Assembly (NCBI RefSeq): GCF_030282845.1
Contig: NZ_JASTWE010000032.1
Location: 1-44,592, forward strand
DNA from: Pseudodesulfovibrio pelocollis
GTDB taxonomy: Bacteria; Desulfobacterota; Desulfovibrionia; Desulfovibrionales; Desulfovibrionaceae
Direction: 5' to 3'
Length of the DNA stretch: 44,592 nt
The translations under genes were made by a program, and so were the position numbers. Below the pieces are notes generated by a model, which worked only from the letters and a program-made list of their open reading frames with translations, searched no databases and had not been told where the DNA came from. Numbering within the stretch: position 1 is the stretch's first letter; every line of letters begins with the position of its first letter. Positions 13,482 to 16,450 of the stretch are shown here, piece after piece.

Positions 13482-14288
13482 TCAGCGCGGCTCGCGCCCG
13501 GCGCGGGCCAGTACCAGCGCGTCCAGCCCGGCGGCCCCGGCGCGGCGCAGGGTGCGGGCGTACTCGGTCAGGGTCGCGCCCGTGGTGTACACGTCGTCCA
13601 CCAGGAGGGTGGTCCGGCCGCGCACTTGTCCGGCGTCTGCGGCAAAGGCGTCGCGGATGTTCTCGCGGCGCTGGTCCTTGTCCAGGCTCATCTGGGGCGC
13701 GGTATGGCGCACCCGGGCCAGGGCGTCGGCCGCCACGGGCCTGTCCAGGCTGTCCCCCAGGCCGCGCGCCAGTTCAAGACTCTGGTTGTAGCCGCGCTCC
13801 CGGAGCCGCCGGGGGTGGAGCGGCACGGGCACGATGATGTCCGGCAGCGCCACGGTGCGAACCGCGTCAGTTGCGCCGCGCCGGAACGCTTCCGAGGCGA
13901 GCGTGACCAGCAACCGGGTGCGGTGCAGGCCGCCGTGGAATTTGAAGTCGATGATCAGGTCGCGCAGCGGGCCGGAATACGCCCCGTGGAAAAAGAGCCG
14001 GTCCCACGGCGGCGGGTCAAGGCGACACTCGGCGCAGATGATGGCCGGTCCCCGGGATTCGTGGCCGCTCTCGTCCAGTCTTTCTTCCGACGCATGATCC
14101 GGCCCGTCGCCGAACATGTCGCCACAGCGGGCGCAGCATCCCGCAAGGCGGGGGCGCAGCGCCTCGGCGCAGGCCGGGCACAGCGGGCTGCCCGGGTGGT
14201 CTATGAGGGCCGAGCAGACCGGGCAGCGCGCTGCGGCCACGCCCAGGGTCTGCGCGAGGCGGGCCAGTCGAGCGGTGAGGCCGCGCAT
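13482..14288 (-). CDS. ComF-family phosphoribosyltransferase-like protein
   Basis: A 268-residue protein of the ComF/GntX type. The N-terminal half has double zinc-ribbon cysteines (CPVC, CPAC, CARC and CAEC). The C-terminal half has the phosphoribosyltransferase fold with VPVPLHPRRLRERGYNQSLELA and the PRPP-binding loop LLVDDVYTTGATLTE. In competent bacteria, ComF helps handle incoming single-stranded DNA; in others the role is unclear. It is the last gene of a five-gene minus-strand unit, 6 bp after the flavodoxin-like gene. Confidence 0.93.
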   Translation of the reverse strand: MRGLTARLARLAQTLGVAAARCPVCSALIDHPGSPLCPACAEALRPRLAGCCARCGDMFGDGPDHASEERLDESGHESRGPAIICAECRLDPPPWDRLFFHGAYSGPLRDLIIDFKFHGGLHRTRLLVTLASEAFRRGATDAVRTVALPDIIVPVPLHPRRLRERGYNQSLELARGLGDSLDRPVAADALARVRHTAPQMSLDKDQRRENIRDAFAADAGQVRGRTTLLVDDVYTTGATLTEYARTLRRAGAAGLDALVLARAGREPR

Positions 14289-14294
14289 CGCGCC

Positions 14295-14900
14295 CTAGGG
14301 GGCCTCTTCCCAGGCACGGCGGCCCAGGGCGGTGATGGCGTTGCGGTCGGCCCGGTTTGTCAGGTCGTCCGGCCCGTCCACCCCGCGAAAGGTCAGGGGG
14401 TCGTCCAGGGTCATGGCGAAGTTGTGCAGAAAGTAGCGCAGCGTGACCGCAGCTCCCTCGAAGAGCTTGTCGCCCCGGGGGCGACCGGCCGCGAACACGG
14501 CCCGGGCGGTGCGCTGGGGCAGGTCGGTCAGCCAGGGCGCGCCGTCTGCCCGGGCGGCCCAGAACTGTTGGCCCCGGTCGATCCAGGTCTTGAACATGGA
14601 GGGCAGATGATAGAAATAGATGGGCGAGGCAAAGAGCACGGCCCTGGCCGTGAGCAGCGGCTCGAAGAGGTCCCAGGCCGCATCGCCCGGGCCGAGCACG
14701 CACAGGTCGCGGCCGCGCCGCTCGCCCGGTTCGTCGCAGTAGCCGCAGGCCAGGCAGGGGCGCACCTCGTGCTCGCGCACATTGATGATGTCCGCCTGCC
14801 CGCCCGCCTCGCGCACGCCGTCCGCCAGCCAGGCTGCGGCGCGGTCGGTGTTGCCGCCCCGGCGGTGGCTGCATGCGAAGATGACGGCCCTGTCGGTCAT
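14295..14900 (-). CDS. Flavodoxin-fold NAD(P)H-dependent oxidoreductase
   Basis: A 201-residue cytoplasmic flavoprotein of the NADPH-dependent FMN reductase group. The phosphate-binding loop is CSHRRGGNTDRAA (about residues 10-22). A CLACGYC motif of the iron-sulfur flavoprotein kind lies at about 49-55, and ASPIYFYHLPSMFKTWIDR is the typical flavin-binding segment. The ATG overlaps the stop of the upstream small gene by 4 bases (ATGA). It could be an iron-sulfur flavoprotein or a simple FMN reductase. Confidence 0.9.
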   Translation of the reverse strand: MTDRAVIFACSHRRGGNTDRAAAWLADGVREAGGQADIINVREHEVRPCLACGYCDEPGERRGRDLCVLGPGDAAWDLFEPLLTARAVLFASPIYFYHLPSMFKTWIDRGQQFWAARADGAPWLTDLPQRTARAVFAAGRPRGDKLFEGAAVTLRYFLHNFAMTLDDPLTFRGVDGPDDLTNRADRNAITALGRRAWEEAP

Positions 14901-15166
14901 GATTCGTTTCCTGTGTCGGCGGTTTCATCCTGGCCGGAATACACCGGCTTGACGCGGGTCATGCGCGTCAGCGCGTGGTCGCCGCGTTCCTCGATCTCAA
15001 GGGTCCAGTCCGGGTGGCTGTGCATCTCGTGGCGCACCTGGGCCACCCCCTTGGGGGCGACCAGGGCCTCGACCCGGTCTGTCCTGGCGAAGCGGAGGTA
15101 CCAACCTACCTCCAGTCCCACGCCTCAGCATTTGTCACGGATGTCGATGCTGACCATGTCGCTCAT
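14897..15166 (-). CDS. Candidate small selenoprotein with in-frame TGA
   Basis: An 89-residue frame if TGA at 15125-15127 is read as selenocysteine. ATG at 15166 lies one base after the stop of the metallo-hydrolase gene. Thirteen codons ending in Asp-Lys-Cys lead to TGA, then Gly-Val-Gly-Leu-Glu and 70 more residues, with no other stop until a 4-base overlap with the next gene. Codons before TGA have strong G/C third positions like the rest. A hairpin 12-31 nt after TGA has a GGU in its loop at +19 to +21, the spacing I recall for E. coli fdhF. The Cys-Sec pair suggests a redox role, and the neighbours are redox genes. I recognise no family. The alternative is a 13-residue peptide plus a 74-residue protein from GTG at 15121, which lacks a usable ribosome binding site. 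Confidence 0.6.
15094..15113 (-). promoter_or_regulatory. SECIS-like hairpin
   Basis: On the minus strand, GGAGGT and ACCTCC form a 6-bp stem (7 with the inner A-T) around a loop containing GGT. The stem opens 11 nt after the in-frame TGA. The codons here (GTA, GGT) break the local G/C third-position preference, as expected if RNA structure is selected. Confidence 0.55.
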
Positions 15167-15167
15167 G

Positions 15168-15791
15168 CTAGAATCCCGCGAAGAAAGGGTTGTGGTTCAT
15201 CTCGTCGCCCACCGTGGTCTCCGGGCCGTGGCCCGACAGGAGCAGGGTCTCGGGCGGCAGGGTGAAGATGCGCTCCGTGACCGAACGCTTGAGCGTGTCG
15301 AGGTCGCCGCCCTCGAAATCGGTCCTGCCGATGGAGCGGTAGAAGATGAGGTCGCCCACAAAGGCGGCCCGGGCCTCGGGAAAGTAATAGGTCAGGCTGC
15401 CTATGGAGTGGCCCGGGGTGGCCAGCACGGTGCAGGCCAGCCCGGCGAACACGGCCTCGCCCGGTTCGATGGTCTGCGCCTCGTAGCGGTCAACCGGCGG
15501 CAGGCCGAAGAGGCCGCCCAGGCCCAGCTCGGTTTCGAGCAGGTAGGCGTCGTCGACCCCGTGCAGCACGGGCGCGCCCGTGGCCTGGGCCAGGGCCTTG
15601 TTGCCGTAGGTGTGGTCAAAGTGCAGGTGGGTGTTGAGGATATGGGTCAGGGTCAGCCCCTTGTCCTTGAGATAGGCCAGCACCGGGGCCGGGTCGCCGC
15701 CCGGGTCCACGGCCACGGCCTCGGCACCGTTGGCCAGGACGAAACAGTTGGTCTGCAGGGGGCCGAGGGCAAAGCTCTTGATTTCCGTCAT
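15168..15791 (-). CDS. Metallo-beta-lactamase-fold hydrolase (glyoxalase II-like)
   Basis: A 207-residue cytoplasmic hydrolase. The zinc-binding signature is NTHLHFDHTYG (HxHxDH type), followed by ATPGHSIGSLTYYF and FVGDLIFYRSIGRTDFEGGD, all typical of YcbL/glyoxalase II-like enzymes that cleave thioesters such as hydroxyacyl-thiols. The C-terminal histidine is in LLSGHGPETTVGDE. It overlaps the upstream nitroreductase by 4 bases and is followed by the small TGA-containing gene after one base. Confidence 0.93.
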   Translation of the reverse strand: MTEIKSFALGPLQTNCFVLANGAEAVAVDPGGDPAPVLAYLKDKGLTLTHILNTHLHFDHTYGNKALAQATGAPVLHGVDDAYLLETELGLGGLFGLPPVDRYEAQTIEPGEAVFAGLACTVLATPGHSIGSLTYYFPEARAAFVGDLIFYRSIGRTDFEGGDLDTLKRSVTERIFTLPPETLLLSGHGPETTVGDEMNHNPFFAGF

Positions 15792-16309
15792 ATCTCCTCC
15801 AGGAGCAGTTCCGAGAGTGGTTTGCGGGTTGAGGCACCCTTCTGGTCCGGGTGGCCCAGGGAGATGACCGCCTGGAGTTCGTGGATCTCGGGATCAAGCC
15901 CGAGGGCGGCCAGGGAGGCACCCTGATCGTTGACGATCTGGCCGATCCAGACTGCGCCGAGGCCCAGGGCGTGGGCGGCCAAAAGCATGTTCTGGATGCA
16001 GGCTCCGGCCCCTTGGTGGTCCTTCATCTCGCTGTACATGGCGCTTTTTTCGAGGGTCACGGCGATGCAGGCGGCCGAGGCGCGGATGATGTGCGCGTAC
16101 TTGGTGCACTCGGCCAAAGGATCGCGCCGGGGGTCGTCGCCGGTGATCACCAGGAATCGCCAGGGCTGGTTGTTCAGGCCGCTGGGTGCCCAGCGGCCGG
16201 CTTCGAGGATGGTCAGGATGTCCTCCCGGGCAACGGATTGTCCGGTGAACTTGCGGATGCTGCGCCGCTCAAGCAGGGCGCGTATCACGGGGTTGTCTGT
16301 CCGGCTCAT
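15788..16309 (-). CDS. Nitroreductase-family FMN oxidoreductase
   Basis: A 173-residue member of the nitroreductase family, which uses FMN and NAD(P)H. The N-terminal RRSIRKF and GRWAPSGLNNQPWRFLVI bind FMN phosphate and ring, and LLAAHALGLGAVWIGQI is the conserved second block. It is the short type common in anaerobes. It is the first gene of the redox operon. AAGGAG lies upstream of the ATG, and just above it is the nested inverted repeat at 16327-16450. Confidence 0.93.
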   Translation of the reverse strand: MSRTDNPVIRALLERRSIRKFTGQSVAREDILTILEAGRWAPSGLNNQPWRFLVITGDDPRRDPLAECTKYAHIIRASAACIAVTLEKSAMYSEMKDHQGAGACIQNMLLAAHALGLGAVWIGQIVNDQGASLAALGLDPEIHELQAVISLGHPDQKGASTRKPLSELLLEEI

Positions 16310-16326: not shown

Positions 16327-16450
16327 CAGGCTGTTGAAAAATGGCAATCTGCGTCGTTGCTTCAAAAAGTTCAAATCCTCGCGTACAGGAAGTACGCTTC
16401 GGCCTTGAACTTTTTTCGCGCCTAGCATCTCGCCATTTTTGAACAGCCTG
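16327..16450. repeat. Nested inverted-repeat element, copy A
   Basis: Three nested stems: outer CAGGCTGTT...AACAGCCTG plus AAAAATGGC...GCCATTTTT (16327-16345 with 16432-16450), middle AAAAAGTTCAA with TTGAACTTTTT (16364-16374 with 16405-16415), and inner GCGTAC with GTACGC (16381-16386 with 16392-16397). It has the same plan as the elements at 42.7-43.2 kb but different arm sequences. It sits between the nitroreductase operon and the ECF sigma gene. Confidence 0.9.

Follow-up and report, generated by a model that had tools for sequence, protein, structure and literature searches.

We analyzed a 44,592-nucleotide stretch of Pseudodesulfovibrio pelocollis DNA (contig NZ_JASTWE010000032.1 of assembly GCF_030282845.1, the window), whose minus strand carries a short gene with an in-frame TGA codon. 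The gene (14897..15166) starts at ATG 15166, one base past the TAG of the upstream gene (15168-15791), and runs for 13 codons to a TGA (15125..15127) that directly follows the TGC codon of Cys13. It then continues for 75 more codons to its stop, TGA 14899-14897, and its 3′ end overlaps by four bases the ATG (14900) of a flavodoxin-like gene. Reading the internal TGA as selenocysteine (Sec), at residue 14, yields an 89-residue product with an adjacent Cys13-Sec14 pair, here called the Sec14 protein. An original prediction, made from the sequence alone, had proposed this frame, these coordinates and the TGA after a Cys codon, and direct reading bears them out. The frame 15166-14897 is very probably a genuine selenoprotein gene of a Desulfovibrionaceae family with a predicted Sec, because its UGA codon 14 is kept as Sec or Cys across homologs, a hairpin resembling a selenocysteine insertion sequence (SECIS) follows that codon, and the genome holds the Sec machinery.

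We searched the read-through protein against 199 genomes of Desulfovibrionaceae and found homologs in 111 of them, spread over 25 of 44 genera; 110 genomes carry the TGA form, and the sole match in the remaining genome (G182) is a Cys form. The TGA lies inside 110 of the 113 matches, single-contig genomes included, and three matches are stop-free. Ninety of the 113 matches were read at the locus level (87 Sec-form loci and the three Cys forms L082, L083 and L084). In a column-by-column comparison of these loci, the aligned position holds TGA in 87 and Cys in the other three, with no further residue seen, and neither TAA nor TAG occupies it in any of the 87 Sec-form loci (0/87). Coding conservation is present on both sides of the in-frame UGA, and the pattern goes far beyond what chance would give. 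Upstream, Asp occupies position −6 in 87/87 Sec-form loci (34 GAC, 53 GAT) and Cys position −1 in 86/87 (57 TGC, 29 TGT), the third base varying in both; downstream, Gly directly follows Sec in 84/87, and a Glu-x-x-Trp-Tyr/His-Leu-Arg block lies further on. A separate pattern search of named genomes, using a pattern without the TGA, returned TGA in 40/40 loci, several of which lie on the same contigs as loci of the family search, so that the two sets are not independent. The titles of these 40 loci include Pseudodesulfovibrio, Solidesulfovibrio, Nitratidesulfovibrio, Humidesulfovibrio, Desulfonatronovibrio, Desulfovibrio and unclassified Desulfovibrionaceae, among others. In a phylum-wide search of 395 genomes, the family was found in six, all of them Desulfovibrionaceae, and a search with a Cys form as the query returned three genomes, again all Desulfovibrionaceae; neither the 395 phylum genomes nor the Cys-form query yielded a wider Cys ancestor.

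These data bear on two readings in which no Sec is inserted. A mechanical open reading frame does exist from GTG 15121, and the TGA might be a real stop separating a 13-codon leader from an independent 74-residue protein. However, the Asp and Cys before the TGA are kept although their third bases vary, no stop codon other than TGA occurs in the column, the Cys relatives read straight through, and 31/87 loci lack an ATG, GTG or TTG within the 12 codons past the TGA. The conserved residues before the TGA and the loci without a later start codon together indicate that the GTG is not the family's start, while Shine-Dalgarno-like bases precede the upstream start chosen by our script in 68/87 loci (loose pattern). 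The alignment refutes a real stop after a 13-codon frame, which we consider very improbable. A pseudogene or a sequencing error would likewise look like a frame interrupted by a stop, but either is refuted by the conservation of the TGA in 110 of 113 matches across 25 genera, in single-contig genomes and in all 40 named loci, and we give this explanation the least credence of all. The original prediction, which held that the codons before the TGA look coding, had named homologs beginning at the GTG, a sense codon other than Cys or Sec in the TGA column and a sequencing error as grounds for abandoning it; the residues before the TGA are conserved, the GTG is not where the homologs start, the column holds only TGA or, in relatives without it, Cys in the loci read, and an error is excluded.

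The 45 bases past the TGA (15080..15124, minus strand) form a SECIS-like fold region, as judged by folding with RNA parameters and by a synonymous-recoding test. The apical hairpin (15094..15113, minus strand, +12 to +31 after the TGA) begins 12 bases past the TGA and pairs GGAGGTA with TACCTCC around a GGTTGG loop (GGUUGG in RNA letters), and its GGU falls at +19 to +21 (15106-15104), as had been predicted. This is the position of the GGU in the Escherichia coli fdhF SECIS, a comparison that the original prediction also made. After removing six identical copies from the 87 Sec-form loci, 81 distinct hairpin sequences remained, and pairs +12/+31 to +17/+26 are kept in nearly all of them. The +16/+27 pair is A-U in 36 distinct sequences, G-C in 32, G-U in 13 and A-C in none; when only Tyr codons are counted, out of the 87 loci, the numbers are 34, 25, 14 and 0. 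Third bases in the stem are almost frozen: Glu is encoded by GAG in 84/84 cases, Leu by CTC in 83/87 (background 24%), and the Val/Ile codon is GTA or ATA in 60/81, compared to local backgrounds of 13% and 19%.

In 81/81 sequences, the hairpin folds more stably than its synonymous recodings do on average (mean z −2.3; 56/81 at p<=0.05), compared to a mean z of −0.45 for 34 Cys forms, of which 20 fall below zero and 2 reach p<=0.05. The codon background for this test was taken from the longest non-overlapping open reading frames of each locus, not from annotated genes. Judged from these sequence comparisons, the hairpin is constrained at synonymous sites, and the constraint is much weaker in the Cys forms. 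The Rfam model RF00031 matched neither the locus nor any of its 14 controls. One Cys form (L082) has an unusually stable fold after its Cys codon (z −3.6), perhaps a relic hairpin from a Sec-to-Cys change.

A selA, selB, selC and selD check had been proposed for the genome, and selA, selD, a selB over its cut-off and a tRNA-Sec (82 bits) are all present. In-frame TGA codons also occur in the selD gene and in two fdhA genes of the same genome. Across the family, selB over its cut-off was found in 102/110 genomes with the TGA form, compared to 65/89 without it (p 2e-4, kinship ignored). At one locus (L065, G031:C6), selB is a close neighbor of the Sec gene, the roughly 1.1 kb that separate the two containing a universal stress protein gene.

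An AlphaFold model of the Sec14 protein (predicted local distance difference test score, pLDDT, 88) has SirA/TusA as its nearest fold. According to this model, the protein is a single small TusA/SirA-like beta-alpha-beta-alpha-beta-beta domain, as in the PF01206 proteins (E. coli TusA, SirA-like 3hz7, YeeD/TsuB), and its Sec follows strand 1 and precedes helix 1. In both, the reactive chalcogen residue is placed between these elements, six residues past a conserved Asp. The modelled Sec14 sits where TusA has its sulfur-accepting Cys, the correspondence with TusA Cys19 being drawn by residue offset only. Unlike TusA/SirA proteins, the Sec14 protein has Sec for Cys, a Cys before it and UGxG for CPxP; it has no match to the Pfam TusA model and no detectable profile similarity over the half that contains the motif. 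The Pfam hits that appeared were dismissed as chance, including DUF6578 (E 0.078 for the window protein; 2/33 family members, best 0.023) and single-member matches such as UL148 (E 0.0058). In NCBIfam release 20.0, the window protein has no match at E<=10, and the 33 members give four weak unrelated matches, one member each. A profile compared to the sequences of solved structures gave four matches at E 0.3-0.5, none of them meaningful.

Stop-free relatives of the Sec14 protein are present in 57/199 family genomes, and many of them adjoin mnmE. Among the 30 best stop-free matches (22 further matches were left out of this count), 30/30 lie on the same strand as mnmE and at most 36 bases away, measured between alignment ends. 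Most of these 30 carry the motif TCGLxP, which places Cys at the Sec column; the Cys paralogs share CGLxP, apart from one with CNLTP. The vicinal Cys is missing in most Cys paralogs, which have TC, SC, VC or YC instead. The P. pelocollis genome itself encodes such a paralog on contig C53 (L187:1471-1758, TCGLMP), directly behind mnmE (L187:50-1468), and its protein has no Pfam or NCBIfam match; five Cys relatives that were scanned gave no Pfam match and one weak unrelated NCBIfam match. The Cys forms L082, L084, L148 and L186 read CCGLVP or YCGLVP, and a gene for a 4Fe-4S membrane protein lies near L148.

MnmE acts on the same tRNA base as the TusA pathway. In E. coli, TusA serves the formation of 5-methylaminomethyl-2-thiouridine (mnm5s2U), according to the accessible text of PMC2854127, and the mnmE link of many Cys paralogs therefore favors a role as a chalcogen carrier. 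From gene position alone, we infer such a role for the mnmE-linked paralog.

The Sec gene is embedded in a run of minus-strand genes, in which Pfam identifies the nitroreductase, hydrolase and flavodoxin-like neighbors that the original prediction had named. The run begins with a nitroreductase-family flavoprotein (15788..16309; PF00881, 4e-29), followed by a glyoxalase-II-like hydrolase of the metallo-beta-lactamase fold directly upstream of the Sec gene (15168..15791; PF00753, 1.5e-30; TIGR03413, 4.2e-24 but below its cut-off). Downstream is the overlapping NADPH-dependent FMN reductase or flavodoxin-like protein (14295..14900; PF03358, 2.9e-14), and the conserved run ends with a ComF-like phosphoribosyltransferase (13482..14288; PF00156, 1.1e-6, and a zinc-ribbon match). 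The ComF-like gene, which is probably a housekeeping gene, follows the FMN reductase in most operon-bearing loci. In 57/87 Sec loci, the Sec gene has both the nitroreductase and the hydrolase on its upstream side and the FMN reductase on its downstream side; another 8/87 have the hydrolase and FMN reductase without the nitroreductase, and 4/87 have the FMN reductase with no hydrolase within 400 bases. Counted singly, the hydrolase lies within 400 bases upstream in 65/87 and the FMN reductase within 400 bases downstream in 69/87. Loci L001-L030 were read with 1500-base flanks only.

The best reading of these data is that the Sec14 protein acts as a TusA-like chalcogen carrier or as a thiol-redox protein using its vicinal Cys-Sec pair. 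Between the two we lean toward a genuine selenoprotein, of a family undescribed in the sources searched, that works like TusA as a chalcogen carrier (probability roughly 0.58). In such a mechanism, the Sec14 selenol would accept one atom of sulfane sulfur (or of selenium), supplied by a persulfide donor, and pass it on. Cys13 would then close a Cys13-Sec14 selenenylsulfide, releasing the cargo, and the site would be reset with electrons from the operon's flavin reductase or reductases. The mnmE-linked paralog would be the Cys counterpart, perhaps in the wobble-uridine pathway where TusA acts in E. coli.

Several observations weigh against a Sec-dependent, TusA-like carrier. No selB over its cut-off was found in 8/110 genomes with the TGA form (G014, G077, G109, G145, G174, G175, G189, G195), all of which are draft assemblies with contig numbers from 30 to 590; completeness is below 90% in five of the eight. 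In the recoding test, the two fdhA elements of the same genome did not stand out (z about 0) and selD did so only weakly (z −0.99), so that the test is not a general SECIS detector; a low recoding z supports a SECIS, and its absence would not refute one. On the tree of the neighboring hydrolase (66 loci), the +16/+27 position gave three supported independent pairs, concordant or neutral and none contrary, which is not significant. The operon neighbors are absent in 18/87 Sec loci. Foldseek found nothing at E<=0.001 and ranked SpoVS first; the TusA fold assignment comes from VIA-align, which re-ranks only Foldseek's own candidates, and its score for TusA 3lvj (8.8) is tied with that of the MutS2 Smr domain (8.6), with IF3-like and Alba folds following at scores of 6-8. 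The six Pfam families that the 33 members hit at E<=1 do not include PF01206, and in place of a CPxP motif most alignment rows have UGxG. When its profile was compared to that of local TusA proteins, the match was confined to the C-terminal half (probability 31.6%, E 0.0005 for the single pair), a similarity too weak to support a claim of TusA family membership. A shared fold does not show function, and the genome, which encodes two ordinary TusA-family proteins as well, does not lack such a carrier. Lastly, no mnmE was present in the stretch read at five Cys-form places (L082, L083, L084, L148 = L185, L186; motifs CCGLVP, TCGLVP and YCGLVP), and the mnmE link is consequently not general to the Cys relatives.

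The alternative that we graded nearly as good as a carrier, and which we regard as possible, is a small thiol/selenol redox protein whose Cys13-Sec14 pair shuttles electrons between the flavin reductase and an oxidised thiol, a persulfide or an organic substrate of the nitroreductase or hydrolase. Mammalian thioredoxin reductase has a vicinal Cys-Sec pair of this kind (GCUG). The near-invariant Cys before Sec (86/87 loci), the flavin reductase close downstream (69/87) and the nitroreductase upstream (57/87) all fit electron transfer, and a resemblance to thiol oxidoreductases is common among selenoproteins whose function is unknown (PMC13188914). The modelled fold, however, is TusA-like and not thioredoxin-like, and most Cys paralogs lack the vicinal Cys, so that the wider family does not depend on the pair.

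A more specific form of the carrier proposal, which we consider unlikely as stated, is that in sulfate reducers a Sec-armed TusA-like protein carries sulfane sulfur or selenium, the latter as a perselenide on the selenol, and feeds selenophosphate synthetase or the selenation/thiolation of wobble uridine; the Cys paralog linked to mnmE would be its counterpart for sulfur. If this were true, the selenol would give discrimination or speed beyond that of Cys where reduced sulfur is in great excess, and the protein would be a candidate selenium donor to SelD, a donor that the consulted part of a 2026 review describes as incompletely elucidated (PMC13188914). Slightly less probable still is soft-metal or metalloid handling, in which the Cys-Sec pair would bind elements such as Hg, As or Cu; this has been proposed for other CU-motif selenoproteins (HgcA, SaoL, SaoC and MbdU). 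Table 1 of PMC13188914 indeed assigns CU motifs to several families with a link to mercury or other metals, but none of the four scanned window neighbors (the flavoproteins, the hydrolase and the ComF-like protein) is a metal-resistance gene.

The families that share adjacent Cys-Sec residues with the Sec14 protein, namely KCU-star (DUF466), SaoC, SaoL, HgcA and MbdU, are other families by their NCBIfam models and by Table 1 of PMC13188914, and none matches any of the 33 members. KCU-star, to go by its name, presumably ends at its Sec. DsrE-like proteins are a family with a sulfur-relay-type fold. The DsrE-like selenoprotein (PF02635) has a Sec form, listed for Desulfovibrio vulgaris in the accessible part of PMC1794560, and differs in its Pfam family and in its UxxC motif (Table 1 of PMC13188914), compared to CUG in the Sec14 protein; PF02635 has no match in the window protein or the 33 members. 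YedF (SirA-like plus DsrE-like, TIGR03527) offers a likeness in that its SirA-like domain is connected with the metabolism of selenium (PMC2432076, PMC5322559), but it has two domains and a CPxP motif in the SirA-like one, with no Sec mentioned in the portions of these papers available, whereas the Sec14 protein has one domain with Sec.

The D. vulgaris selenoproteins named in the consulted part of PMC1794560 are SelD, three FdhA, a DsrE-like protein, GlpC, a HesB-like protein and FrhA, and that list does not name the Sec14 protein family. None of the 119 selenoprotein families in the 2026 review is TusA/SirA-like, as far as its accessible text goes, and the family is not named in the available parts of PMC12013277 (new families from deep-Sep), PMC9312934, PMC1914089, PMC10779653, PMC2432076 or PMC5322559. 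By title and abstract start, none of the papers listed on Desulfovibrio and deltaproteobacterial selenoproteins and on TusA, SirA or MnmE with selenium describes the family, subscription papers being mostly outside this search and a prior description possible; no TusA-like protein with Sec for the sulfur-accepting Cys was found in the selenoprotein literature in the form searched. The claim that the protein is undescribed thus holds within these partly accessible sources, with isolated weak Pfam/NCBIfam matches and no entry in Table 1 of PMC13188914. The original prediction was largely right and survived the refutation tests that it had itself named; the TusA-like fold, the mnmE-linked Cys paralogs and the restriction to one taxonomic family had not been foreseen.

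A selenoprotein family present in just over half of the sampled Desulfovibrionaceae genomes (110/199) has been missed by domain libraries and by the 2026 catalogue checked, and standard gene callers would probably truncate or miss such genes. Its existence makes testable why a sulfide-soaked cell pays for selenium in a chalcogen-relay fold. It also brings to light a Cys paralog that neither Pfam nor NCBIfam names; its frequent place behind mnmE hints at the modification of tRNA wobble bases.

At the few loci looked at outside the operon, neighbors of the Sec gene include a GDT1 transporter, a MoeA-type gene that also encodes a binding-protein domain and, in a single genome, selB. In Solidesulfovibrio (L112, L123), the Sec gene lies near a GDT1 transporter, and in L123 a fusion of a MoeA-type molybdopterin gene with a binding-protein domain is also close by. 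In the window, an inverted repeat (16327-16450) lies just upstream of the nitroreductase gene, with 26-base arms (16327-16352 and 16425-16450) that are 85% complementary and separated by a 72-base spacer; possible explanations are a small mobile element or a structure formed in the transcript.
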